Shown piece after piece: positions 6,954 through 39,200 of a DNA stretch of 42,855 bases (position 1 is the stretch's first letter; each line of letters opens with the position of its first letter). Both the position numbers and the translations under genes were made by a program. Origin of the DNA: Burkholderiales bacterium (GTDB lineage: Bacteria; Pseudomonadota; Gammaproteobacteria; Burkholderiales; Casimicrobiaceae); NCBI GenBank assembly GCA_014378555.1, contig JACMNN010000126.1, positions 1 through 42,855 of the forward strand, read 5' to 3'. Under the pieces are notes generated by a model that saw nothing but the letters and a program-made list of their open reading frames with translations, made no database searches and was not told the DNA's origin.

Positions 6954-7508
6954 ATGCGCAGTCATGACGCAAATGCTCACCGTGCTTCGAGTCGACGCCT
7001 TATAGCGTCAAGGCAAAAAGGTTTTGCCCTCATCGTCGCGCTGCTGTTGTTGGTCGCACTGTCGTTCATTGGTGTCAGCGCACTGCGTAACGTGACGTTG
7101 CAAGAGCGAATGGCCGGCAATCAATATTATCGAACCGTCGCATTGCATGAGAGCGACGGGGCGCTTAGATATGCCCGACAGGTCATCCAGTCGGCGTGGC
7201 AAAGCGACGCTATTCCGGCGTCCACCGCGCCGGGTTCAATTGCGCTCTGGGGCAGTCTGGTTCCGCAATCATCCATTGCGTTCTTTGCTTCCGGTGCCAA
7301 TTGGTCGGGCGCAACCACCGTCCCTAGTTTGTCATCGACTCGTCCGGTAGCAGCCCAAGTTGCAATTGAGGTGCTTGACCAAGGTGCAGCGCCGTGTGAT
7401 TCGAATACGGAATGTAGGTCGTACTTTATTCGTTCGACCACGCGTGTGGTCGATCCTGTTACCAACGCCTCTATCGTCACTCAGGAATGGTCGACCTATC
7501 CAAAATGA
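6954..7508 (+). CDS. pilX: PilX, type IV pilus minor pilin
   Basis: PilX (184 residues) has a positively charged leader ending RQKG, then FALIVALLLLVALSFIGVSALRNVTLQERMAGNQ. The Glu at +5 of major pilins is replaced by Val, as is usual for PilX, and the LQERMAGN segment after the helix is characteristic. It starts 2 bases after pilW and its stop TGA overlaps the ATG of pilY1 in an ATGA junction. It acts with PilY1 in adhesion and in countering pilus retraction. Confidence 0.9.
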   Translation: MRSHDANAHRASSRRLIASRQKGFALIVALLLLVALSFIGVSALRNVTLQERMAGNQYYRTVALHESDGALRYARQVIQSAWQSDAIPASTAPGSIALWGSLVPQSSIAFFASGANWSGATTVPSLSSTRPVAAQVAIEVLDQGAAPCDSNTECRSYFIRSTTRVVDPVTNASIVTQEWSTYPK

Positions 7509-10500
7509 ATGTACGACCAATACCCCTTGCAATTTTTGCCGCCGCAACAGGTTGTCTCATCGCAATCTCGGCAGCTGCAGACGCACAATCAACGATGGCG
7601 CAGTCGCCGATGACTGTGCAGCAACCCGCCCCCCCGATAGTCATGCTCTCGGTCGGGCGCGACGAGCGACTTTATAACGCGGCCTACAACAACTACTCGG
7701 ACATCGACGGCGACGGTACGATCGACGTGGATTACAAGCCGGGTGTCATCACTTATTTTGGCTTGTTTGATTCGGGCAAGTGCTACAAATACCACGGTTC
7801 GAAAAGTCAATTTGAACCGTTTAGTGCCGTGGTCGATGCGGTTGCCAAGACGTGTGGGCAAAGCGTCGCTTGGAGCGGCGATTGGCTCAACTACGTGACC
7901 ACCTCGCGCATGGATGTGTTGCGCCGGGTGTTTTATGGCGGCAAACGCAGCGAAGATCTGGCCACGACCGTGTTGGAGCGCGCCTACATTCCACAAGACG
8001 CGCACGTGTGGGGTTCCGAGTTCAGCAGCACCCGTTCAAGCTATGACATCCGGCAATACACCACGTTGTCATCGCCCGAGGCAAATACTCAGCACCTTTT
8101 TGCCAATGCGACGTTAAATGGGTCTGCGGCGAATCCGCCGTTGATGCGTGTTTTGCTAAGCCGCAGTGAACGCATTTTCGATTGGGTTGCCAGAAAAGGC
8201 CCGGTTGCCGATCGCCTCATCAGCAACCCGGTTGATGGCAGTGATGCCGTGGTGGAGCCGACGGATTTCGTAGTTCGTGTGCTTGCCTGCGTTAAATCAG
8301 CGGCTTTTCCAATGGAGCCTGAATGCAAGGGCTATCCGACCGCTAACCCGACTGTGTGGCGTCCAACGGGCGTTTTGCATGATTATGGTGAAAATCGTTC
8401 AGTCGCGTTTGGCCTCATCACAGGCTCGTACGACAAGTCGAGAGCAGGCGGTGTGCTGCGCAAAAACGTAGGTTTTTTCGATGACGAAATTGAGCCTATT
8501 ACCGGCATGTTTATTCCTGCCGTCAATGGCATCGTGGGCGCCTTTGACAAACTACGAATAGCGCAGTGGCAGGCGGGCGGTTATGCCTGTAGTGGCGACT
8601 GCAAAGATTACGGCAACCCGATCGCCGAAATCATGTACGAGGGGCTGCGCTATCTAGGCAGCGGTGGTGCGCCCACCCCCGCTTACGCAATTGGCGCATT
8701 AGGCACTGACAGTGCGTTGGGCCTGCCTTTGCCCCTGTGGTTAGACCCATTTCGCCCGGCACTTTTAGGGGGATTGCCGGTTTGTGCCAAGCCTGTCCAG
8801 ATGGTGGTCAGCGACGTCAATCCCACATTTGACGCGGATCAGGTGCCTGGCACTGCGTTCGGAAGCTTTGCGGGTCCCAGCGCGCCGACTAAGCTTGCCG
8901 GCTTGAATGCTTCGAGCTTGGGTCAGACAATTTGGTCTGCCGAAGGATTGGCGGCGCGACACTATTTTTTAGGTGAAAGTCTGGCGCACACAGGCAACAC
9001 TTATGACGCAGCGCCGACCGCCAAGCTCGCGAGCTCGTTTGGAAACATACGCGGCCTAGCGCCCAGTGACCCGACGCGGCAGGGCAGTTACTATGCCGCA
9101 GCCGTGGCTAACTTTGGTGCCAAAAATCCAATTACCTCGCCTGGTAACAGGGCGGTCGATACCTACGCCATCGCTTTGCCGCCGACCACTCCCAGCATCG
9201 CAATTCCCACCGGCGGGGGCGCCATCACGGTCACACCGTTTGGCAAAAGTATTGGCGGATGTAACGCGGGTGAGTTCGTTGCAGGAACCCCGTTTTTAAC
9301 CAATCGTATTGTTGGCTTCTATTTTGAATCGGTAGAAAACGTACCCGGATTCCCAACGACCGCTAACAATGGCGGGCGCGCGATTGGCGCATTCAGGGTC
9401 AGTTTTAACGACAACGAGCAGGGTACTGACAACGCCATGAGTGCGGTTGTTCGTTATCAATTTCAGGTCAATATCGACAACAGCGTGACCATGCGGTTAC
9501 GGTCAGAGTCTGCAGCGCGATGCGTTGATCAAAATTTAGGTTTTGTTGCTACGGGATCAACCACAGATGGCGTTTTTTTAGGGGTGCGCGATTTAGACGG
9601 CGCCGGTGGTGCCTATACGCTGAACGATTCTACTCACTCGTTCGACGTAAATTTGACAACCAATGTTCGGGCCTATGCGCCGGCGGGACGCTTGGCTACG
9701 AGTTACGAGCGCAATTTCACGCCATCAGGCGCCACAAATTCGGGCGGTTCAATCCCGCAAAATCCGCTTTGGTACGCGGCCAAGTACGGCTCAGCTGGCG
9801 GGGTGCCAGACACCAATACCTTGCCTCTGCCAAATTATGCATCCGCGCGCAATCCCGAACGCCTACGCGCTAAAATTGCCGCAGCTCTCGACAACATTTT
9901 GAGCAACAGCCAACCAGCGACTGCAGTCAGCATGAGCGGTGGTGTCGTGAGAACAGGCACATCTTTGGCGTTCTCCTCCAACTTTCTTTTTTCCACGCAG
10001 AGCGTGCCGCGTTGGGCCGGTTTGCCGATGTCCGCCACCCTCTGGAAGGGTGGCGTGGACGCCCTACGTTTAAACGACGACGGCACACTCGGTAGCGTCA
10101 TCTGGTCCGCGCGCTTTCCAACCGTCACCACGGCCACCACGCCAGGGGATGACTTTGTCGGCTCCGGTAGGACAGTGATTACCAAAATGGGCTCGCTTGG
10201 CTGGGCGCCGTTGAACAACGCTAATTTGGCGACCGACGCCGGGCTCACCGGGCTACTCGCGCCCATCACGATGCAAATACGATTGTTGCCCAAACTTATC
10301 GAACAGTTCGGTGCCGTCGCGATGGCAAACCCGGTGCTGCTGCAGCAGCGCACCGCGCAGGCTGTTGCCAACTACGTTAAGGGCGACCCATCGTTGGAAC
10401 GCGGCAACACGCTGGCGAATTTAGTGGCGGGCACGCTGCGGATTCGCGACACGCCGCTGGGTGATATTGTTAACTCGGTGCCCGCCTATGACGGCCCCAC

Positions 10501-12088
10501 CGATTTGGGCCACAGCAGCAGCGGTATGCCGGGGGCAAACTCGTACGCGACGTATGTTGCCACCACCAAGGCATCGCGGCCAAAACGAATGTGGGTGGGC
10601 TCGAACGATGGCATGTTGCACGCATTCAATGCGTCCAACAGTGGCGCGGGAGGACTCATTCAATGGTCATTTATTCCGCAGGCGCTGCAGTCAAAGCTGG
10701 TTGATTTGGCGAGCCCGGCGTATGCCCATACCTATTTCATGGATGGCAAAGTCACAGTAGCCGACGTTTTTGATGGTGCAATTTGGCGAACTATTGTGCT
10801 TGCAGCCGCAGGCGCCGGTGCGCGAACGGTGGTCGCCATCGACGTGACTGGCAACACCCCTCAGGTGCTGTGGGAGGTGAGTGCCGGCGCGCCGGGCCAA
10901 CCGTTTGACGATCTGGGTTATGTGCTGGGGCGGTTAGACGTGGTTCGCGTTAATAGCGGCTCAACGACTACGCAGTGGGCGGTGGTGTTTGGCAATGGCT
11001 ACGAATCATCGGTACGCAGCGGCTCAACGACAAAACGGGTGGCCCGGCTGTTCGTGCTGGATGCTTTAACCGGTACCCAGCTCGGTGCCAAACTCACTGT
11101 GCCTGACAGCGCGGGCGTGGCGTACAACGGCCTGAGCAGCGCCGGCATCATTCGTGATCAAACCGTCACCGCTACCCTATCGCGGTCAACGCTAACCGCT
11201 TGGGCCGGAGACCTCGCTGGCAACCTATGGCGATTCCGAATCGTTGGCGACCCGTCCACTTGGCGCGTTGAAAGCTTTTCGAACACCAGTAACACTCCGA
11301 AGCCACTGTTTACGTCATCCCGCGTGCCAGACGCCGGAGGGACAGCGCTACGGCAGCCGATTACGGCGGAGCCGGCAATTGTCAGGTCGTTGAGCCTTGG
11401 TTATTACGTAGCCTTCGGCACCGGAAAGTTTTTTCAAGATGCAGATCGTTCGTCCACGGATGTTCAATCCATGTATTCCATTCGCGATACCGCCACCACT
11501 TTTCGAATCGCAAATGCTTCTGCGGCTGCGCTATTGACTGAGGCAGGATCGAATCGGAGTAATTTGCGGCAATTTTCGATCGCGTCGCAAAGCGGCACTG
11601 CGGGCGGCACAGGCGTGAGGACGCTGTCGGTTGCCGCCAACGCCGATAGCCAACGTGGCTGGTTTCTCGACTTTAATCAAAACGGCGCTGCAGGCTCACC
11701 CGCTGAGCGCATCATTGCCTCGCCAGTGATCTATCTGCCGCTGGTTTATGCGGGTACTTTTCAGCCGTCAGCCGATTCGTGTACGTCCGGTAGTAACGGC
11801 TGGTTCATGGCGTTTGGCGCGGACAAAACCGGAGCCACAACAAATTTTGATGCCAATGGAGACGGTGTGTTTGAGTCGACACCGGCAAATGGAGCCCGGA
11901 CCGGCGGCGGTTTTTCAGGAGGCTTCGGATTGGTTGCAAGCGCAGATGGCACCAAAATGAATTTCGTCGGACTGCCTGGCGCTTATCGCAACTTAAGTCA
12001 AGGGTCAGGCGGGCGGTCGCCGGCGCAGGGTGTCGCCAAACGTGTCGATACAGGCGCGGGTAGGATTAGTTGGAGGCAGATTCAGTGA
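7505..12088 (+). CDS. pilY1: PilY1-type pilus tip adhesin
   Basis: PilY1 is a large secreted tip protein that controls pilus extension and adhesion. I start at ATG 7505, which overlaps the pilX stop (ATGA) and gives a clean Sec signal peptide (MNVRPIPLAIFAAATGCLIAISAAADA); the ATG at 7487 only adds six charged residues. The product is 1527 residues. The N-terminal half has the PilY1 opening (VMLSVGRDERLYNAAYNNYSDIDGDGTIDVDYKPG) but no MIDAS (DxSxS), so the von Willebrand A domain found in some homologues is absent. The C-terminal half is the PilY1 seven-bladed propeller (about residues 960-1370, with KRMWVGSNDGMLHAFN near 1027). Two DxDxDG-type calcium loops are visible, DIDGDGTID at 66-74 and DANGDGVFE at 1449-1457. 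Confidence 0.93.
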   Translation: MNVRPIPLAIFAAATGCLIAISAAADAQSTMAQSPMTVQQPAPPIVMLSVGRDERLYNAAYNNYSDIDGDGTIDVDYKPGVITYFGLFDSGKCYKYHGSKSQFEPFSAVVDAVAKTCGQSVAWSGDWLNYVTTSRMDVLRRVFYGGKRSEDLATTVLERAYIPQDAHVWGSEFSSTRSSYDIRQYTTLSSPEANTQHLFANATLNGSAANPPLMRVLLSRSERIFDWVARKGPVADRLISNPVDGSDAVVEPTDFVVRVLACVKSAAFPMEPECKGYPTANPTVWRPTGVLHDYGENRSVAFGLITGSYDKSRAGGVLRKNVGFFDDEIEPITGMFIPAVNGIVGAFDKLRIAQWQAGGYACSGDCKDYGNPIAEIMYEGLRYLGSGGAPTPAYAIGALGTDSALGLPLPLWLDPFRPALLGGLPVCAKPVQMVVSDVNPTFDADQVPGTAFGSFAGPSAPTKLAGLNASSLGQTIWSAEGLAARHYFLGESLAHTGNTYDAAPTAKLASSFGNIRGLAPSDPTRQGSYYAAAVANFGAKNPITSPGNRAVDTYAIALPPTTPSIAIPTGGGAITVTPFGKSIGGCNAGEFVAGTPFLTNRIVGFYFESVENVPGFPTTANNGGRAIGAFRVSFNDNEQGTDNAMSAVVRYQFQVNIDNSVTMRLRSESAARCVDQNLGFVATGSTTDGVFLGVRDLDGAGGAYTLNDSTHSFDVNLTTNVRAYAPAGRLATSYERNFTPSGATNSGGSIPQNPLWYAAKYGSAGGVPDTNTLPLPNYASARNPERLRAKIAAALDNILSNSQPATAVSMSGGVVRTGTSLAFSSNFLFSTQSVPRWAGLPMSATLWKGGVDALRLNDDGTLGSVIWSARFPTVTTATTPGDDFVGSGRTVITKMGSLGWAPLNNANLATDAGLTGLLAPITMQIRLLPKLIEQFGAVAMANPVLLQQRTAQAVANYVKGDPSLERGNTLANLVAGTLRIRDTPLGDIVNSVPAYDGPTDLGHSSSGMPGANSYATYVATTKASRPKRMWVGSNDGMLHAFNASNSGAGGLIQWSFIPQALQSKLVDLASPAYAHTYFMDGKVTVADVFDGAIWRTIVLAAAGAGARTVVAIDVTGNTPQVLWEVSAGAPGQPFDDLGYVLGRLDVVRVNSGSTTTQWAVVFGNGYESSVRSGSTTKRVARLFVLDALTGTQLGAKLTVPDSAGVAYNGLSSAGIIRDQTVTATLSRSTLTAWAGDLAGNLWRFRIVGDPSTWRVESFSNTSNTPKPLFTSSRVPDAGGTALRQPITAEPAIVRSLSLGYYVAFGTGKFFQDADRSSTDVQSMYSIRDTATTFRIANASAAALLTEAGSNRSNLRQFSIASQSGTAGGTGVRTLSVAANADSQRGWFLDFNQNGAAGSPAERIIASPVIYLPLVYAGTFQPSADSCTSGSNGWFMAFGADKTGATTNFDANGDGVFESTPANGARTGGGFSGGFGLVASADGTKMNFVGLPGAYRNLSQGSGGRSPAQGVAKRVDTGAGRISWRQIQ

Positions 12089-12703: not shown

Positions 12704-14101
12704 TCATTTCAATTGCGTCACATCGAGGACAGCGGAAAGTTGCCAATCCTCCCCGATTTCCGACGCAACGGCGACCACCCAGTTTTCTGAGTCAACCGTC
12801 AGCTGGGACACACTATTGGCCTTGCTCGGGTCGAACGCGCAAAGGACGTAGCTGGCCTCGTTTTTTAAAAAACTGATTATTGGCAGGTGTTCTGATTTAT
12901 CGGGCGTCTGGGCAATTCGCGCATCGGCAAAGTTGCAAATCACTTCGCAACCGACCAGCACCACGTTATTGCTATCTTCCAACCAGCGTACTGCGGCTAT
13001 CGTCCATGGCTCCGATACGCTTCCGCGCAGGCAAAGAAACGTTCCTACACATAAGTTCGCCTCGCTCAACTCGTAGCGCAGCAGAAAGCCCCCGTCGCTG
13101 TGATTCTCAACGATTGCAGAATGAGTGTGGTGGCTGGCTGAGGTCCCTGGGGCGGTGATTGGCTTGGCCTGCTCTTGCAGCGCGCTCCAACACTCAATAA
13201 ATCCCACCACCGTCGATACGACGTCTTCACGTCCGACGCGGGGGATTGATCTGGCATTGGTGTAGCCAAATTCGCGCATCGCGCGTCGAACAAAATCCTG
13301 CATTTCTTGCGCTGATAGCCCGACTTGCAGCGCTGATTGCAGCAGCGCTTCATAAACGTCACTTGGGGCGTGTCGCGAAGGCGGTGTCGCCAGTTCACGC
13401 ATAGTGAACGCCGCGTCTTGCGCGTTAATGTAGAGCGGTGCAATCGGTTCCCACGTCGTGGGAACTCTGGCAAATGGCATCGGCGGCACATCGCTTAGAA
13501 GATCGGATGCGGCCAGCCCAGAGCCGGCGTGAGTGGGCGACACTAGGGTGAAGCTGCACGTTTTGCACAGGATTCCAACCAACCGCACCGCAACCGGAAG
13601 GCGACCGGGCGCTAATGACAGTGGGTTCAGCCATGCCATTAACCAAACTTGCAACACCTGATGAGTGAGGGCTTCGCGGTTTTCTCGATCCGGAAATCGT
13701 TCGGAGATGATGTAGCCGGTCAACGCGTAAACGGTTCGCCAAAATCCCGGCGGCGGTGCGCAGAATCCGAGGTTGCAGCCGGCGTAGATTCGGGCTAAAA
13801 CACGCAGCGCGGTTTCAATCGCTTTGGTTGAGAGCAGGGTGGTCTTGTACAACACGATGGGGTGCGGTTGACCTAATCCAGCCCGGTGCCATAGTGTTTT
13901 TGCCAAATGCAAATAGGTATCTAACGCTTGCCGAGCGTGTGGCGGAAGCGGGTGCGACGCGTTCCAGTAATTGGACTCAAGCAGTTCCCACAGTGGGTCG
14001 CTGAGCAACAGAACCGCAGCATCGTAATCGCCGGCTGTAATGGCGTACACCGCGTCTCGCAGCGGCGTGGCGAGATGATCGGCTTGCTCGGTTTGGGTCA
14101 T
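12704..14101 (-). CDS. Unknown 465-residue protein with PilZ-like C-terminal motif
   Basis: I cannot name this protein with certainty. The N-terminal 310 residues look soluble and mostly helical (AGDYDAAVLLLSDPLWELL, ARQALDTYLHLAKTL). Around residues 328-390 there is a beta-rich segment with IVENHSDGGFLLRY, which fits the (D/N)xSxxG motif of PilZ domains (N333-G338), followed by VGTFLCLRG and AVRWLE; the upstream RxxxR motif of c-di-GMP-binding PilZ domains is not seen. The gene converges on pilE with 154 bases between (no gene, no clear terminator). It also follows radA on the same strand by 82 bases and could be the last gene of that run. A c-di-GMP-related pilus effector is a guess from motif and position. 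Confidence 0.75.
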   Translation of the reverse strand: MTQTEQADHLATPLRDAVYAITAGDYDAAVLLLSDPLWELLESNYWNASHPLPPHARQALDTYLHLAKTLWHRAGLGQPHPIVLYKTTLLSTKAIETALRVLARIYAGCNLGFCAPPPGFWRTVYALTGYIISERFPDRENREALTHQVLQVWLMAWLNPLSLAPGRLPVAVRLVGILCKTCSFTLVSPTHAGSGLAASDLLSDVPPMPFARVPTTWEPIAPLYINAQDAAFTMRELATPPSRHAPSDVYEALLQSALQVGLSAQEMQDFVRRAMREFGYTNARSIPRVGREDVVSTVVGFIECWSALQEQAKPITAPGTSASHHTHSAIVENHSDGGFLLRYELSEANLCVGTFLCLRGSVSEPWTIAAVRWLEDSNNVVLVGCEVICNFADARIAQTPDKSEHLPIISFLKNEASYVLCAFDPSKANSVSQLTVDSENWVVAVASEIGEDWQLSAVLDVTQLK

Positions 14102-14183: not shown

Positions 14184-15548
14184 CTAGCTGCCGCGAACAT
14201 TCTGACGAATTGCATCGATAGCCGCTTCAATCCGCACGATGGGCGTCAAAAAGCCATCTTCAACACGTTCTCGTGCCTGCCGATTTACCGGTGGGCCAAT
14301 CACCTTTGAAAAACCAAGCTTGTCGGCCTCCACCACGCGCAGCGCACTGCCAATGACCGGCCGAACTTCGCCCCCTAAGCCCAGTTCGCCAAATACGACT
14401 ACGTCGGACGGAATAGCCACGCCGGTCAATGACGACCAAATCGCGGCGACGATGGCTAAGTCCGCAGCGGGCTCGGTGACCCGAATTCCGCCTACGACGT
14501 TAACAAACACATCAAAGCCACCCAGCTGACTGCCTAAGTGCCGGTTCATCACCGCCAGCAACATGGCCAAACGCTGGCTGTCAAACCCCGTGCACACCCG
14601 TCGTGGATTGCCTGTGGTGCGATCGACCAGCGCTTGCACTTGAACCAGCAGCGGGCGCGATCCCTCGATGGCCGCAAACACGGCATTACCCGGCGAAACC
14701 TCTTGTCCGCGCGCCAGGAACAAGGCCGACGGATTGCTGACACCGCGTAGACCATCTTCGAGCATGGCAAACACGCCGATTTCGTTGGATGCGCCGTATC
14801 TATTTTTAAGCGCGCGAATGATGCGAATATTCGATCCCGGCTCGCCCTCAAAGTAAATGACCGTGTCGACCAAATGCTCAAGCACGCGGGGGCCAGCAAT
14901 CGCGCCTTCCTTGGTCACGTGGCCCACCAAAATGGTCGCGGTGCCGGTGCGCTTTGCCAGTCTAGTCAATTCGGCCGCGCATTCGCGAACCTGAACCACT
15001 GAGCCGGGTGCTGACGAAAACGACTCGCTAAACATCGTCTGAATAGAGTCAATCACTATTACTTTTGGCGATAGCAACCCGATTTGCTCAACGATCGCGT
15101 CTAGCGACGTCTCGGCGAGCATGTTGATGCCACTTAAGTCCAGCCCAAGCCGAGTGCCGCGTGCGGCTACCTGCGCCGGCGACTCTTCCCCGGACACATA
15201 AAGCGTGGTCATCTGGCTGGATAGCGCGGCAATGGCTTGCAGCGTTAGGGTTGATTTTCCGATGCCGGGGTCGCCGCCGATGAGCGTGACGCCGCCGGGA
15301 ACCAAGCCACCGCCTAGCGCGCGATCAAACTCTGGGAGTCCTGACGACCAACGCAATTCTGAGCCCGGCTGCACGTCGGACAGCTTGACCACCCGCGCTG
15401 CTGAGGAAACCGTGGAAGTGGCTCTACTCGTGGTTTGCCGCGCCTCTTCTAATGTGTTCCAGGCGTTGCACGCTGAACACTGGCCTTGCCACTTGCTAGC
15501 AGCGGCGCCGCAGTCTCGGCATACGAACGTTAGTTTTACTTTTGCGAT
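14184..15548 (-). CDS. radA: RadA, DNA repair/recombination ATPase, apparent ATC start
   Basis: RadA is a RecA-like branch-migration helicase in recombination. The start at ATC 15548-15546 gives 454 residues (E. coli RadA 460). With it the N-terminus aligns as (M)AKVKLTFVCRDCG, and the zinc finger C10-x2-C13-x10-C24-x2-C27 is intact. Walker A GGDPGIGKST is at 91-100, the RadA motif appears as KNRYG (usually KNRFG), and a Lon-like C-terminal domain follows. No ATG, GTG or TTG occurs in frame between the upstream TAG (about 15570) and the GTG at 15392, which would delete the zinc finger. An AAAGG lies 7 bases before the ATC. Either ATC is used as start or an ATG has mutated or been misread. It follows ugd by 71 bases. 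Confidence 0.93.
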   Translation of the reverse strand: MAKVKLTFVCRDCGAAASKWQGQCSACNAWNTLEEARQTTSRATSTVSSAARVVKLSDVQPGSELRWSSGLPEFDRALGGGLVPGGVTLIGGDPGIGKSTLTLQAIAALSSQMTTLYVSGEESPAQVAARGTRLGLDLSGINMLAETSLDAIVEQIGLLSPKVIVIDSIQTMFSESFSSAPGSVVQVRECAAELTRLAKRTGTATILVGHVTKEGAIAGPRVLEHLVDTVIYFEGEPGSNIRIIRALKNRYGASNEIGVFAMLEDGLRGVSNPSALFLARGQEVSPGNAVFAAIEGSRPLLVQVQALVDRTTGNPRRVCTGFDSQRLAMLLAVMNRHLGSQLGGFDVFVNVVGGIRVTEPAADLAIVAAIWSSLTGVAIPSDVVVFGELGLGGEVRPVIGSALRVVEADKLGFSKVIGPPVNRQARERVEDGFLTPIVRIEAAIDAIRQNVRGS

Positions 15549-15619
15549 AACTAGACCTTTAAAATCAATCGACTAGCCGCGGTAGGTGAAGCTTTACTTC
15601 ATCTCATGCGCGCGCGACT

Positions 15620-16957
15620 TTATGCGTTGAGCCGCCCAAACGCGTGATATCGAAGTCCCGCAGACCGAGCCTTTGCGGCATTAAACACGCTGCGCCCGTC
15701 GAACACGATAGGCGTGCGCATAACGCGCGCAACCTCCTCCGGTGTTACCGAGTAGAACTCTTTCCACTCGGTTGCAACCAGCAATACATCTGCGCCCGCT
15801 AACGCTTGCATTGCCGTTTCGGTAGTCGAAAAACCTGCGTTAACGGCCAATTCTGCTCGGCCGGTGTGTTGCGCCTGCGGGTCGTAGGCGCGCACCGAGA
15901 ATCCGGCGTTGAGTAGCTTTTGCGCCATCACGATACCGGGCGCTTCGCGCACATCGTCGGTGTCGGGTTTGAACGCCATGCCCCACAACGCGATGACGGT
16001 GTCTTCGGGTTTGCGGCCTTCAGCGCGCAACAGTGCCAGCAATCGATCCGCCATTAATTCACGCTGCAGCACGTTAATTTCCGCTGCCGCGTCGGCAATT
16101 CGCATCACCGAGCCCACCGCTTCGCCCTGCTTCACCAGCGAGGTGACGTCTTTAGGAAAACACGAGCCACCGTAACCGCAACCGGAGTTCAAAAACTTCT
16201 GCCCGATGCGCGGATCCAGTGCCATGGCGTCGCGCACCGAGTCGATGCATGCGCCCGTCATGTCCGCCAGATTAGCCAGCTCATTCATGAAAGAAATGCG
16301 AACCGCCAGCATCGCGTTTGCCGCGTATTTGGCCAATTCAGCCGATTCAACGGACATCACTAATGTTCGCTCAGCGCTGAGTTTTAGCGGTGCATAGATT
16401 TCTCGCAACTGCGCTTCCGCATGGGCATCGCTTACGCCGAACACGGTGCGTTGCGGTTGCAGAAAATCTTGGAGCGCGTGTCCCTCCGCCAGAAACTCAG
16501 GGTTGGATGCGACCCGAAAAGACACCGGACGGGCGGCCTTTTCTGCCGCGCTTTTCAGCCGCGCTGCGAGTTTTTGGCCGGTTCCGACCGGTACCGTTGA
16601 CTTGGTAACGATCAAGCTGTTGTTCGGTGCGTTCAGTGCAATGGTGTCGGCGGCGGCGAGAAGATAGGACAGGTCACTTGAGCCGTCCGCTAGGGGCGGC
16701 GTACCGACGGCCAGAAACTGCACCTCACCATGCCGGGCGGCATCAGCGGGATCGCTGGTGAATCGCAACCGGCCATTTGCCAGCTCTTGCGTCAATAAAT
16801 CATCCATGCCGGGCTCAAAAAAAGGTGTTTTGCCTTTTGCTAGCGCTTCTAGCCGAGCAGAGATCAACTCGGCGCACACTACGTCGTGGCCGAGATTTGC
16901 CAGACAGCTTGCCTGCACAAGTCCAACGTAGCCCGCCCCGTAAACAGATATTTTCAT
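15620..16957 (-). CDS. ugd: UDP-glucose 6-dehydrogenase
   Basis: Ugd oxidises UDP-glucose to UDP-glucuronate with two NAD+, a precursor for capsule, exopolysaccharide or lipid A sugars. ATG 16957 gives 445 residues beginning MKISVYGAGYVGLVQASCLA, with the Rossmann GAGYVG at 7-12. The catalytic Cys266 is in GCGYGGSCFPKDV (259-271), and the C-terminal substrate domain has GMAFKPDTDDVREAP. The open frame extends further upstream into lapB but the extra part has no family resemblance. It lies 19 bases after lapB and is likely co-transcribed with it. Confidence 0.96.
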   Translation of the reverse strand: MKISVYGAGYVGLVQASCLANLGHDVVCAELISARLEALAKGKTPFFEPGMDDLLTQELANGRLRFTSDPADAARHGEVQFLAVGTPPLADGSSDLSYLLAAADTIALNAPNNSLIVTKSTVPVGTGQKLAARLKSAAEKAARPVSFRVASNPEFLAEGHALQDFLQPQRTVFGVSDAHAEAQLREIYAPLKLSAERTLVMSVESAELAKYAANAMLAVRISFMNELANLADMTGACIDSVRDAMALDPRIGQKFLNSGCGYGGSCFPKDVTSLVKQGEAVGSVMRIADAAAEINVLQRELMADRLLALLRAEGRKPEDTVIALWGMAFKPDTDDVREAPGIVMAQKLLNAGFSVRAYDPQAQHTGRAELAVNAGFSTTETAMQALAGADVLLVATEWKEFYSVTPEEVARVMRTPIVFDGRSVFNAAKARSAGLRYHAFGRLNA

Positions 16958-16976
16958 TGTGTTTGTATGTTGTTTG

Positions 16977-18137
16977 CTATTGTCCGAGAGGCGTGGCGCG
17001 GAAGCTTTCCCACTCATTGCAGCCCGGGCATTTCCAATAATAACGCGGTGCCCTGAAGCCGCAATGGCCGCAGTGAAACCCGGGCGTTTTTTCGGTGGCA
17101 TTGCGCAGTAACAGCGCAACTTCGTTCATGGTGTGTGCGGCGTTGACGTCGTGTTTTTCGCTCTCAAGCTCGAGCAGACGCGCCACCTCGCGAGCCGACG
17201 GCTGACTACGCAACGCGCGGGTCAGGCGACTGAGCGCTATGTCCCTGCTCTCCAGCTTGATCGATGCATCAACCAACCGCGACAGTCCGAGCGTGGTTGA
17301 TATTTCATCCTGCGCCGACGCTAGTTGGGCCACAGCCTCCTGCGGCGTGCCTAGACGCTCGTATAACGTGACAATATCGTCACTGATCAGCACCAATAGT
17401 CCTGGGCTGGTCCGTTTCAGCTCCGAAAGCGCCTGAAGCGCTGCCGGTTTGTCATCCGCTTTGAAGGCTGCTTTGAACGCTATTAACGCGACTCGAGCGC
17501 TATTGCGGTTCGCGCTGGATGCATCAGTCAGGTGCCGCGTGACGTTTGCCGTGTCGCCCGCAGCGAGCGCCAATTCGGCCAGTTCACAGTGATACTGGGC
17601 GATAAATCGACCCTGCGGTTCGCCACTCAGCTTTTGAATTCTTTGCCGAGCCGCAATGGCTTTTTGCCATGCTTTTTCCTGCTCCAAGACCGATGCCAGC
17701 TTGGTGACTGCTTCCGCTTCGTAGGTTGATCCAGCGAGTTGTTCGTATACCGTTTCTGCGCGGTCAAATAGGCCTGCTGCATGGAAATCTTGAGCCAACT
17801 CAAATTGCGCGAGCTCGCGCTTTTCTTTGGGTAAGTCGTGACGATCTACCAGCGATTGGTGAATGCTGGTCGCCTCCCCTACTCTGCCCTGACGCCGAAA
17901 CAGGCTGCCTAAAGCGAGCTGCAAATCAAGCGCATGCGGGTCGCGGCGCGATACGTCAACAAAGCTCTCAACGGCTTTGTCATGTTGTTCACGAAGTAGA
18001 AAATTTAAGCCTCGGAAATATGCTGAAGGCAACGCCCGTGCATCTTGCAAGACGTAACGAATGTCAACGCGAGCGGCAAACCAGCCGAGCGCAAAGCAAC
18101 CTAGCGGCACCAACAGCCACCAAGCTTCAAATTCCAC
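16977..18137 (-). CDS. lapB: LapB (YciM), LPS assembly regulator
   Basis: LapB is an inner-membrane TPR protein that presents LpxC to FtsH and so limits LPS synthesis. The 386 residues begin with one membrane helix (WWLLVPLGCFALGWFAARVD, about 6-25), then TPR repeats (ALPSAYFRGLNFLLREQHDKAVESFVDV, LGSLFRRQGRVGEATSIHQSLV), and end with a rubredoxin-like metal site (CGHCGF and CPGCNEW). The start is GTG 18137 with AAGG 6 bases upstream. The usual partner lapA, a two-helix protein gene, is not between ihfB and lapB: only 38 bases separate them. Confidence 0.94.
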   Translation of the reverse strand: MEFEAWWLLVPLGCFALGWFAARVDIRYVLQDARALPSAYFRGLNFLLREQHDKAVESFVDVSRRDPHALDLQLALGSLFRRQGRVGEATSIHQSLVDRHDLPKEKRELAQFELAQDFHAAGLFDRAETVYEQLAGSTYEAEAVTKLASVLEQEKAWQKAIAARQRIQKLSGEPQGRFIAQYHCELAELALAAGDTANVTRHLTDASSANRNSARVALIAFKAAFKADDKPAALQALSELKRTSPGLLVLISDDIVTLYERLGTPQEAVAQLASAQDEISTTLGLSRLVDASIKLESRDIALSRLTRALRSQPSAREVARLLELESEKHDVNAAHTMNEVALLLRNATEKTPGFHCGHCGFRAPRYYWKCPGCNEWESFRATPLGQ

Positions 18138-33257: not shown

Positions 33258-36200
33258 GTGTCCCAAGCCGAGCTGTTGCGTCTTATACCGGATGCACCGG
33301 CGGCGGTATGTGCGATTCTTGACGGCTCCCGCGGTCCATTAGAACCGCCTATCCGGTCCGAGATTTTTGGTCCACAACGTTTCGCGCAACACGGCAAAAG
33401 CTTGGGCGAAACGCACCGTGCTGATCGCGCAACCCGCAGGGCTGTAACTTTTTTCCCGCGTCTTCAAGACAACATCAACGCGTTGCGCGAAGCGCATAGT
33501 TACATCGGCATGGAAGCTTCCACCGGCTACGACATTAGTCCCGCAGCTGAATGGCTGCTCGAAAATTTTCATCTGATTGAAGCGCAGCTTAAAGAGATTA
33601 CTGAGGGGCTGCCACGCAGCTATTTTCGCTCTCTGCCGGTGTTGTTGGACGACCCGCTGGCGGGCCTACCCCGCGTGTATAGCGTGGCTTGGGCATTCGT
33701 TGCTCACACCGACGGCGCGTTCGATGACGATTTGCTGGTGCAATTTTTGTCCGCTTACCAAGAGACACGTGAGCTCAATTTAAGTGAGATGTGGGCGCTG
33801 CCCACCACGTTACGTGTCGTGTTGATCGAGAATTTGCGCCGTATTGCAGAACGTGTTGCCACCAACAAAGCGGCACGCGAGGTGGCTAACCGCTGCTACG
33901 ATCGCATCGACACTTTCACGCTTGCCGCATTGGACGAGTTGCTTGCCCTATTGAATCAACGCGGCGTGGGTCGCGTTTTTTTGGCGCAAATGGCGCAGCG
34001 TTTGCGACATCACCGATCCGCCTCGGAGCCTCCGAGCGACGTGCCCTACCTTGACTGGTTACAACATGCGCTACCCGATCTAGCCGCAGCGCAGGCGCAG
34101 CAAGGCGTTGATCAGGCCGCAGACAACTTAAGCGTTAGCAACGCGGTGATCTCGTTGCGCTCTATTGGCGATGCTGATTGGCCTGAGATAGTCGCGCAGA
34201 TCAGCACGCTGATGCGACTGATGTTGACCTCCACGATATTCGCCGCCGAAGACATCGCCACACGAGATCAAACGCTGCACGGAATAGAACGCCTTGCCAA
34301 CCGCACCGGTCGCAGCGAACTGCAAGTCGCGCAAGCGCTGTTAAATCTGATGCGCGTCGATGTTGATGACAACCGCGCGGTAGCAGGCCATTGGCTGCAA
34401 GGCGCCGGCAGATCAGCCCTCATGCGCGAATTAAAACCTTCGATTGCGGCAAGGACGCGGTGGGTCACGATCGTACGACGTTTCGCGCTGCCCATTTATT
34501 TGACATCGTTAATAGCGGGCACCATCGGCCTTGTGTCATGGATGTTGCAAGGCCACGACATCGATCTCGCAGATGTCGGCACGGACACCGGGCAGTGGTT
34601 GACTTTTGGCGTGGTGATTCTGATGTTGTTCCCCGCCTCAGAGGCGGTGGTGACGATTATTAATCGGCTGATTAGCGAATCTGCGCGTCCGAGCCATCTG
34701 CCGCGTCTGGCACTAAACAGCGGCATTCCGGTAGAGCACCGCGTGTTGGTGGTAATCCCCGCGATGTTGACCAGCGAGGCATCAATTGGCGAGTTGGTGC
34801 ATCGGCTGCAATTGCACTTTTTGGCCAACCCCGAATGCAACGCGCAGTTCGCGCTGTTGAGCGACTATGCCGATGCCGACAGCCAACATGTCGAGTCCGA
34901 TGAACGGCTGTTGAGCAGCGCGACTGCGCAAGTGCGGCAACTTAACGAGCGTTATCCAGTGGCTGACGATGACGCCCGACGCTTTCTCATTCTGCATCGC
35001 GAGCGGCGGTTCAGCGAGAGCGAGCGGCGCTGGATCGGCTGGGAACGCAAACGCGGCAAATTGCAGCTTTTGGTCGCCGCGTTGGCTGGCAAGTCGTTCG
35101 ACGCGTTCCTGAATCTGGGCGAAGTGTCTCGCGTCGCCGCGAACACGCCCTACATTGTGACCCTCGATAGCGACACCCAGTTGCCCCCCGGCCGCCTACG
35201 TGAGCTGGTCGGTGTGGCCGCCCATCCGCAAAATCAACCGGTGCTCGATGCCAGCGGTCGCAGCGTGATTGCCGGTTACGGCATCCTGCAGCCGCGGGTG
35301 GTGACGCCGTTGCCAGCGCCGCAAAACTTCACCCTGTTCCACTGGCTGTTTTCAGGGCAGTGCGGCATCGATCCTTACAGCTCTGCCAGTTCCGAGGTGT
35401 ATCAAGACGTGTTCGGCGAAGGCACGTTTACTGGCAAAGGCTTGCTCAATGTGCGGGCCATGCATGCGGTGCTCAATGACCGGCTGCCCGAGGGGCAAAT
35501 TCTCAGTCATGATTTGCTTGAAGGCGCGATCGCCCGATGTGCTGCCGTTACTGACATCACCATCATTGAGGACGCGCCGACTCATGCCGACGTTGCCGCC
35601 TCGCGGGTGCACCGATGGACGCGCGGTGACTGGCAGCTATTGCCCATCTTATTCGGTTCGTTAGTGGCAAGCAACCGGTTTCCGTTGCGCGCCATCAATC
35701 GCTGGAAGATGTTTGACAATTTGCGCCGCTCGCTGGTGGCTCCGATGTCGCTAGCGTTGGTGGTGTCCGCGCTGGCGACCAGCATCGTCTCGCCTTCGGC
35801 TGCGCTGCTGTTGGTGTTTGCTGCCTTTTCAGCCGGGCCGCTGATGGGCGCTGTCGCCGGGCTTGCTCCAAGTCGGGACGATATAGCAAAGCGACACTTT
35901 TATTCGCAAGCGGTGACTGATCTTGCGCGCGCGTTTTTGAGCGGCGTGTGGCACGTCGCACAGCTACTCAATCAGGCGCTGCTCGCGGTTGATGCCATCG
36001 TGCGCTCGCTATATCGCATGACGGTCAGCCATCATCTCCTGTTGCAATGGACCACGGCTGCAGCGGCGCAAGCGGCGGCACAAACTCGACTCGGCGGGTT
36101 GCTACGCGCGCACTGGAGCCTGCCTGTGGTGGCGCTGCTGCTGCTGTTCACGCTGATTGCCGCTGACACGCAGCATCTTCACCTCGCCGTCGCCGTTTGC

Positions 36201-39200
36201 CTGCTATGGGCGGCCACACCGGTCTGGATATGGTGGGTGAGTCGCACTCATGCGACGAGCGAAGTCGCTGAACTTCCGCTCGATGATCAGTCTTACCTCG
36301 AAGGCATTGCACGCGACACCTGGCGGATGTTTGAGCGATGCGTGGTGGCAGACGATAACCACCTACCGCCGGACAATCTGCAGACACTGCCGCACGATAT
36401 GGTGGCGCACCGAACCTCGCCGACCAACATCGGTATGTACTTGCTGAGCGTGGCTTGCGCTCGTCAATTCGGATGGATCGGCACCGAGGACCTCCTGACT
36501 CGTATTAAAGCAACCGTTGCAACGCTCGGCACGCTGCAGCGCTATCGCGGTCACTTCATGAATTGGTACGACACGCAAACCCGTGCACCGCTGCTGCCGA
36601 TGTATGTTTCGACGGTGGACAGCGGGAATTTAAGTGGCCACCTGCTCACAGTAGCGCAGGCCTGTTTGGAGTTGGCGCGCGCGCCGTTTGATATCAGTGC
36701 TGCACGACGGGCAGTCCGCGCGTCCAAGCAGCGGCTCGCGCCGCTGCTGCCACTCGGGGCCGACCTGCAGCGCATGTTGCCTAATAATTCTGCGTTATCG
36801 CATTTGCTGACGCTTCCGGATCCGTTGCTCGATTTTCCGCTGCACGCCAACACGATGTTGCGGCTGTTGCATGAAGCATCGGATGAGTTGCGGATGCTTC
36901 CGGGCGGGGATGCGTCATTTCAGCAAGCTGATCCGCCGATGCTGTCAACGTCGCAAGACGCGCTACTGTGGTGCCTAGCTGATCACGTGACCACACTTCG
37001 ATCGGCGTGGCAGGACGCCCTGGCGGATGCCGAGCAACGCGCGCCCGAAACCACGCTCCGCTTGCAAACGCTGGCTGGCGAACTAGAGCAGATCGCGTGG
37101 CAGGCTGATTTCCGTTTTTTATATCACCGCAGGCGCCATTTATTTCACATTGGTTATCGCGTGGCTGAGCAGCAGCTTGACGCGGGCTTCTACGATTTGC
37201 TGGCGTCTGAATCGCGCCTCACCAGCCTTTTGGCGGTGGCCAAGGGCGATGTTCCGACACGCCATTGGGCCACCCTCGGACGTCCGTTTTTTGCGGTGGG
37301 CACCGTGGCCGGGCTACGATCATGGTCGGGTTCGATGTTCGAGTATTTGATGCCAACGCTGGTGCTTAACGAGCCGCACGACAGCGTTTTGTCCCACGCC
37401 TGCCACGCCGCGTTAACCGAGCAAATGGCGTTCGCCGCGACGCAACACGTGCCATGGGGAATTTCCGAGTCGGCCTATGCCGGACGCGACGAAACGCTCG
37501 CCTATCAATATGCACCGCAAGGCGTCCCAAGACTCGCATTGCGCCGCACCCCGATCGACGAACTGGTGATTGCACCGTACGCAACAGCCCTTGCTGCAGT
37601 CATCGCACCGCGACGTGCCTGTCTAAATTTTGCGGCGCTAGAAAAACTTTCTGCGCGAGGGCGATACGGTTTTATTGAGGCGTTGGACTTTTCCCCGTCG
37701 CGGCATGGCAATGGTGAACCGTTCGCTCCGGTGGCCACGTTCATGGCGCACCACCAAGGCATGACCATCGTGGCGCTGGCCAACGTGTTGTTGGGCGCAC
37801 CTGCGCAGCGCTGGGGCATGGCCAACGCGCACATTGAGGCCGTCGCCTCGCTGCTCCATGAGCGCTCACCGCGTGAAGTCTCAAAACTGTTTGCACCCAC
37901 CGCAGGCCCTCCTCTGGATTCGCTGCGACAGCGCGTGCCGGGCTTACTGCGCGAAGTGGTCGCAGGCACGCTTGCGGTCGAGCCGACCCATGTGCTGTCG
38001 AATGGTTGCTACAGCGTGACGCTTCGCGCCAATGGTGCCGGCGTTAGCCGTTGGGGCCAGACCACGATTTCGCGGTCGCGCGACGATGCGCTGCGCGACA
38101 GTTACGGCAGTTTTTTTTACGTGCGCCCGGCATCCGGTACCGGCGCATCAAATCATGCGCGATTGGCGTCCATCACCCAGCATCCTGCAGGCGATCCAGC
38201 GGCGCACTACGCGGCGACCCATCATGCTGATCGCGTGTGCTTCGAGGCTCGGTGGCCTGAGTTGCAGGCGTACACAACGGTGTGGGTTAGCCCTGAGGAT
38301 GACATCGAGTTTCGCAAAGTTGAATTGCGAAATTTGAGCGACCAAACCATCGACATTGAATTGATATCGGCATTCGAAGTCACGCTAACAGAGGCGCGGG
38401 CTGATGAGGCGCATCCGGCATTTACCAATCTGTTTCTGCGCGCGGAATGGCTCACCGATCATCAGGCACTGATCTTCGAACGCAAACCCCGCTTGGCGAC
38501 TGAACGTAGTTTGTTGGCGGCGCACTTTTTAGCCGATACGGATCGACAAGTGGTCGGCGTGCAAATCCAAACCGATCGTCTGCGTTGGCTGGGCCGCAAT
38601 CATGCGAGCGGTCAGCCACTGGCCTCGTTTGACGACCCACCTTCGCTCGCGACGCAGCCTTCCCAGTCGTCCACCGACAACCTGCTCACCCTCAATACCG
38701 GTCTCGACCCGGTATGCGCGATGGCGGTTCGACTTCGTATCGCGCCGTTCGCCAAAGCCGAGCTAACCTTTGCCACCGCCGCGTCTGACCACAGCAGCAC
38801 CTTGCGCGCGGTGATCGATAAATATCGTCAGCCCAGCCATGTCAAACGCGCGTCGCTGATGTCGGCCACATTGACCGGGATTCGTTTGCGCACATTGCGC
38901 ATCACTGCTGAAAACCACGCCGCAATCCAGACGCTGACCACTGCGATCATGCTCAGCCTCACCCGGCCACGAGCCAGTGCCGACAATGCGCCAGTGGTCA
39001 AGACTGCCATTGATGCCTGTGACCGGCGATTGCTGTGGCGCTTTGGCATGTCGGGTGACCGCCCAATCATTCTGGTCACCGCCGACATCATTGAAGGGTT
39101 GGGTTTGTTGCGCTCGCTGGCCAAAGCGCTGCGCGTGTGGTCATGGGGAGGGGTGGCCTGCGATCTGGTGATCGTGAACATGGAGCCTGCCTCATACCAT

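Follow-up and report, generated by a model that had tools for sequence, protein, structure and literature searches.

Comparative support for an ATC start codon of radA within a genus of Casimicrobiaceae

The radA locus of the window

Where does radA begin in a Burkholderiales bacterium of the Casimicrobiaceae (assembly GCA_014378555.1)? The question is raised by a stretch of 42,855 nt (contig JACMNN010000126.1; the window hereafter), in which a first-pass annotation had proposed that the gene starts at ATC. Read from this codon, radA covers 14184..15548 on the minus strand (454 codons plus the stop). Its product scores 554.8 bits against the family model TIGR00416 (cut-off 403.05), and the alignment begins at profile position 1. 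The Pfam domains of the protein are a zinc ribbon (Zn_ribbon_LapB, PF18073, E 1.5e-10) and KaiC/RecA-type ATPase and Lon-like domains (PF06745, PF13481, PF05362, PF13541). In the translation, the C4 zinc finger reaches from first to last Cys codon over 15468..15521 (minus strand); its cysteines, numbered from the ATC, are C10, C13, C24 and C27, and the first of their codons is 15521-15519. The motif GGDPGIGKST at 15249..15278 (minus strand) we take to be the Walker A motif of RadA. KNRYG is also present in the window protein, and KNRFG or KNRYG was found in the congeners whose sequence reaches that far; KNRFG is presumably a motif of the RadA/Sms family. With its family model, C4 finger, RecA-like ATPase and Lon-like C-terminal domain, the gene product fits RadA/Sms.

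The ATC at 15546..15548 (minus strand) stands at the aligned Met position. An in-frame TAG is located upstream at 15573..15575 on the same strand, and the frame after it translates as S I D F K G L V I A K V K L T F V C R D C G. It had been claimed that no ATG, GTG or TTG lies in frame between the upstream stop and the zinc finger, and we found none from this TAG through 15521. The other particulars of the claim were equally borne out by the coordinates. AAAGG, a Shine-Dalgarno-like core, stands 7 bases before the ATC at 15556..15560 (minus strand), and the first in-frame NTG is the GTG at 15392 (15390..15392, minus strand; codon 53), whose use would remove the zinc finger. The codon comparison across nine loci given below indicates that this GTG is not the start. 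The leader from -20 to -1 (15549..15568, minus strand) is 75% AT, which is AT-rich relative to background starts. Upstream lies a gene for a nucleotide-sugar dehydrogenase of the UDP-glucose type (15620..17119, minus strand; TIGR03026, E 4.7e-120), and the first base of its stop codon lies 74 bases ahead of the radA ATC.

Several other genes of the window were noted. A LapB-like gene near radA (16977-18137, minus strand) matches TIGR00416 with its C-terminal end (E 2.5e-4), and the RadA finger itself matches Zn_ribbon_LapB, so that a metal-binding ribbon is common to these near neighbours. In some congeners, a gene with a LapB-like C-terminus is found directly upstream of radA. For the 465-residue ORF downstream of radA (12704-14101), neither Pfam nor NCBIfam gave a match at E 0.001. 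Farther away, the window encodes a 1533-residue protein with a PilY1 domain (7487-12088) and a 2892-residue protein with GH94 and glucoamylase domains (33258-41936), the latter resembling cyclic beta-glucan synthases.

Start codons of radA in the genus and beyond

A whole-genome search of the family gave a radA match in 53 of 64 genomes. Seventeen of the 64 belong to the same genus, and 14 of these had a match. The three congeners without one are G003, G009 and G016; G016 is 2.6 Mb in size and 97% complete, and its loss of radA may be genuine. In G013, a second RadA-like gene (G013:C17:1325-2620; 52% identity to the window protein) was found besides the ATC-start copy, and is either a paralogue or a contaminant. 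The order search found radA in 158 of the 160 genomes covered, and the phylum search in 145 of 150. The starts examined amount to 235 rows with 227 distinct start regions: 188 came from searches of relatives, family, order and named records, and 47 from a phylum sample. Order and phylum starts were read for part of these genomes, namely the returned loci, the listed matches beginning at query residue 1 and a sample of the rest; matches beginning at residue 1 were chosen because an Ile codon would be visible there.

The codon aligned with the window ATC is ATC in eight congeners (the window locus L001, L005-L010 and L016) and ATA in one (L004). The remaining five congeners with radA start with GTG (two), ATG (two) and TTG (one), where the start was taken as the NTG nearest the zinc finger. 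Aligning the starts of near relatives had been suggested as a check on the ATC; in-frame stops and no upstream NTG were found in the eight other ATC/ATA congeners. Just one codon separates the in-frame stop from the ATH codon in L004, L005, L006 and L016, and four codons do so in L007 and L008. The codon between stop and ATH varies (AAA, CTT, GTT). Since the codon before ATH differs between loci, the ATH codon is the sole shared start candidate. Over all nine loci the preceding codon is GTT, AAA, CTT, ATC or ACC, while the start is ATC in eight of the nine. L007, L008 and L010 have two ATC codons in tandem, and for these the choice was made by alignment and spacing.

An NTG at most 22 codons before the first zinc-finger Cys was found for 225 of the 235 starts (178/188 and 47/47). 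The ten rows lacking it are the nine ATC/ATA genomes and a duplicate, the public record L033 (JANXNI010000051.1, 'Burkholderiales bacterium'), which repeats L005, has the same start region as G015 and reads ATC. A second public record, L034 (JAAFIS010000010.1, 'Betaproteobacteria bacterium'), has the start region of G006 and reads ATG. Every radA start read outside the genus, and five within it, has a near NTG; an isolated ATH start may occur elsewhere in the order or phylum, outside the starts read.

We then compared the coding sequence ahead of the first NTG in the 36 pairs of the nine ATH loci. In codons 2-52, pS was 0.38-1.00 and pN 0.02-0.39; in the remainder of the gene, the values were 0.59-0.79 and 0.01-0.18 for the same pairs. 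The N-terminus is under purifying selection, less constrained than the rest of the gene yet clearly constrained, and the low pN relative to pS in codons 2-52 indicates that translation covers the region ahead of the first NTG. The four zinc-finger cysteines are invariant in all ATC/ATA loci. The first in-frame NTG occurs at codon 16 to 85, that is 45 to 252 bases past the ATH, a spread that leaves no shorter form of RadA common to the loci.

Two simpler accounts of the ATC have to be weighed against these data. A short RadA could start at the first NTG, the window GTG at 15392, and do without the zinc finger, and a mechanical list of ORFs with NTG starts indeed gives 14184-15392 for this gene. 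We regard this as very improbable, because the first NTG shifts from congener to congener and sometimes comes just before Walker A, and because the skipped stretch holds the invariant C4 finger and is under purifying selection. The ATC could also be an ATG misread through sequencing or assembly error. The window does come from a draft genome (G000; 3.55 Mb, 274 contigs, 87% complete), but ATC or ATA stands at this codon in eight other genomes, including G004, a single 4.47-Mb contig, and in the public record L033, so that such an error is ruled out at the level of the genus, and its chance is negligible. The ATC observation was confirmed by this comparison: with the same codon ATC or ATA in nine genomes, it is genuine and goes beyond chance. 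A start of radA at ATC is well supported by the aligned codons of the eight other ATC/ATA congeners and their upstream in-frame stops.

Two further candidates were tried and rejected. An alternative upstream NTG was dismissed on account of the in-frame stops upstream in the ATH loci. A start in another frame followed by a frameshift was dismissed because the candidate TTGs are not shared by other loci; the only other-frame NTGs running into the start were a TTG at -20 (L004, L005, L006) and a TTG at -71 (L004).

Leader, initiation machinery and other genes of the genus

The leaders of the nine ATH loci were compared with 359 background starts, which are NTG codons inferred by homologue alignment (ATG 234, GTG 87 and TTG 38 of the 359 entries) and include several copies of the same gene. 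The Shine-Dalgarno core is 5-6 bases from the ATH in all nine loci by the measure of the script. Pairing energies with the 16S tail range from -2.5 to -5.6, with a background median of -3.2; they are about average for the background, and the site is thus not specially strengthened. The AT content of -20 to -1 is 0.65-0.85, at the 96th-100th percentile of background starts in all nine loci. The predicted structure from -30 to +30 is weaker than that of 88-96% of the background in eight of the nine loci, the window included; L016, at the 62nd percentile, is unremarkable in this respect. The loci compared showed no conserved small ORF upstream of radA, and a role of such an ORF was rejected. A conserved block was noticed at 15561-15574 of the window and at the corresponding position in eight congeners. 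It precedes the Shine-Dalgarno core and contains TTGA some 20 bases ahead of the ATC. The AT-richness of the leader may be due to nothing more than a promoter lying there.

An initiator tRNA gene with anticodon CAU and the GGG/CCC stem was found in G004 (two copies), G011, G008 and G003. G004 and G011 are ATC users and G008 is an ATG user; no radA was found in G003. With a 77-base query on G000-G011, the initiator gene was not found in the drafts G000, G001, G006, G007 and G009, was partial only in G005 and G010, and was represented only by a divergent gene in G002. We assume that the missing initiator genes reflect missing sequence, since most of the drafts are fragmented; G002 and G006 have only about 20 contigs. 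A scan of 31 loci, comprising one locus of G000 and 30 of the 46 G004 hits, revealed no GAU tRNA in an initiator-like stem. The divergent initiator-like Met tRNA of G002, 83% identical to the query, lies in a dense array of 18 tRNA genes (L223, G002:C1 near 864986), and another dense array, of 13 tRNA genes, is found in G003 (L231, G003:C613). These arrays are perhaps a mobile or phage element.

The gene for IF3, infC, is known for non-NTG starts (AUU, AUC or AUA) and is autoregulated by IF3. G000, the genome of the window, contains infC. In each of the 11 copies read from the genus (L115-L117, L120-L124, L126, L128 and L129), the aligned codon is ATA and no NTG precedes the conserved core. 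Elsewhere in the order, ATA seems to be the start in L119 and L130, and ATC in L113 and L118, all four being from other families. The IF3 core is conserved in the genus. After this core, IF3 of the genus (L115-L117, L120-L124, L126) carries an Ala/Pro/Lys-rich C-terminal extension, which occurs in both ATC and NTG users of radA; L113 and L118, which belong to other families, lack it. The pcnB gene of E. coli has an AUU start; in this genus, every pcnB copy long enough to include the aligned place has an ATG there in frame, except for L376, which has TTG.

Two screens addressed other genes. The comparative screen covered 111 homologue groups (383 gene entries) in the radA neighbourhood of nine genomes, and groups present only in two close relatives count as weak evidence in it. 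It flagged 24 of the 111 groups for conservation above the first NTG, and the flagged groups were inspected. Besides radA, 21 of the 23 have a plausible NTG start and two are likely shadow frames; these two aside, radA was the only flagged group judged to lack an NTG start. When 580 kb of G004 were scanned for codon usage, nine of 418 genes were flagged, of which radA was the only convincing one. The other eight resemble shadow frames or pieces of broken genes, judged from translations, or are too weak to call. The scan missed infC and so has low sensitivity; genes of this kind beyond radA and infC may have escaped it.

Evolution and possible consequences of the AUC start

In a tree of 25 RadA proteins, the nine ATH rows form one side of a branch with support 75/84. 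The ATH label requires one change, a number as low as this was reached in none of 500 label shuffles, and 69% of 200 bootstrap trees likewise needed only one. A single origin is moderately supported. Most likely, NTG gave way to ATH a single time, in the ancestor of one sub-group within the genus, whose members have retained it. No pair of the nine loci has a dS below 1.15 past codon 52, and dS is often too high to be estimated; synonymous sites among these loci are near or at saturation. In the parts of PMC5622118 available, one of 61,358 ancestral AUG starts changed to AUU, AUC is not among the changes listed there, and changes from GUG or UUG to AUG are far more frequent than the reverse. 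A switch to AUC retained over so many lineages is unusual.

Three other readings accept the AUC and explain it differently. AUC might be a normal start throughout the genus because the initiator tRNA is altered or IF3 is relaxed. Nothing was found in favour of this, and it is extremely improbable: the initiator tRNA of G004, G011, G008 and G003 has the CAU anticodon and the GGG/CCC stem, the 31 loci scanned gave no GAU tRNA in such a stem, the IF3 core is conserved, the background starts (chosen as aligned NTG codons) are distributed over ATG, GTG and TTG in the numbers given above, and the screen for NTG-less genes yielded radA alone. Alternatively, the AT-rich block might be the radA promoter, with the transcript starting near the ATC and initiation leaderless or nearly so. 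In the nine loci, the high AT content and a TTGA that hardly varies, at about -20 to -17, would agree with this, but the constant spacing of the Shine-Dalgarno core speaks against it, as does the description of leaderless initiation in the available part of PMC9031893, which concerns AUG at or near the 5' end. We hold it to be improbable.

The third reading is that the AUC has no regulatory role: little RadA is needed, a weak start was tolerated, and this start then drifted along. Five congeners start with GTG, ATG or TTG, three of 17 have no radA (one of them 97% complete, hinting at a weak need), and the Shine-Dalgarno site is not specially strengthened, all of which suits such drift. However, ATG is one base away and yet occurs in none of the nine genomes despite their large synonymous divergence, and ATC is kept in eight of nine while the codon before it varies. 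The excess of changes toward AUG over the reverse for GUG and UUG, reported in PMC5622118, also goes against drift. We consider the lack of a role a real possibility, somewhat short of an even chance.

The reading we favour, and consider very probable, is that radA of this uncultured, betaproteobacterial genus has an inherited AUC start, retained with the one AUA in nine species and used with the ordinary CAU tRNA, which would lower RadA synthesis and expose it to discrimination by IF3; the parts on output and IF3 are what we infer. The AUC (AUA in one species) would be read by the ordinary CAU initiator tRNA. Two positions would pair and the third would be mismatched, giving weak initiation, which the spaced Shine-Dalgarno core and the AU-rich, mostly unstructured leader may assist. 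RadA output would then be low and set by the strictness with which IF3 rejects the start complex. In the passages available of PMC10158994, IF3 excludes weak pairs at the third base in favour of strong ones in a reconstituted system, and the AUC/CAU pair lies outside these passages. Excerpts of PMC10303841 mention a Bacillus lacZ fusion whose start, mutated to AUC, still gave expression, at a much lower level, and those of PMC5472188 report that the GTC start of Streptomyces sigR is repressed by IF3, which keeps SigR low. These data on weak pairs, the AUC fusion and SigR suggest that the rate of radA initiation may be low and IF3-dependent. Selection may act on either property or on neither. 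Sensing of the radA start by IF3 is plausible from the published work on other non-NTG starts and from the ATA of infC.

A more tentative extension, which we think rather unlikely, is that infC with its AUA and radA with its AUC make up a small set of genes in this genus that sense IF3. A drop of free IF3, for instance under ribosome stress or a nutrient shift, would then raise RadA synthesis together with IF3. If true, this would couple the capacity for recombination to the status of translation initiation. Whatever its role, a conserved AUC start in a DNA-recombination helicase would add a new kind of gene to the list of non-NTG starts. The nine loci would offer natural variants of the radA start, with the GTG, ATG and TTG sister species as controls. 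Gene callers limited to NTG would remove the RadA zinc finger in most of these genomes.

Among the matches listed in our searches of mostly open-access literature, no title or abstract described an AUC start of radA, and the matches for AUC or ATC starts dealt by title mostly with mitochondrial genomes or eukaryotic initiation. A term-ranked search of similar coverage gave no paper combining radA, IF3, start codon and translation initiation. Few conserved starts other than ATG, GTG and TTG are known, and the best-studied known ones, of infC and sigR, are both controlled through IF3. Like radA, infC has an ATH start at the Met position of its family that is conserved among relatives. Unlike infC, radA does not code for a translation factor, and a feedback loop is therefore not self-evident; the ATH trait of radA is confined to part of one genus in the starts read. 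E. coli pcnB resembles radA as a gene of nucleic-acid metabolism with an ATH start, but the pcnB copies of this genus that extend to the aligned place have ATG or TTG there, and the trait is thus not common to pcnB and radA here.

The sigR gene of Streptomyces is the closer parallel in being a non-translation gene with a conserved non-NTG start, which according to the passages available of PMC5472188 is GTC in 32 of 34 species and GTT in two. The codons differ (GUC versus AUC), and control by IF3 was established by experiment for sigR, whereas for radA it is suggested by sequence. In the same passages, sigR has an extensive AGGAGGTG site, unlike the ordinary site of radA. A further parallel is provided by lacI and other sugar regulators of Enterobacteriaceae, for which the available part of PMC11445065 reports that a weaker start is kept across relatives and confers an advantage; the starts of these regulators are mainly GTG, a normal start, unlike the AUC of radA.
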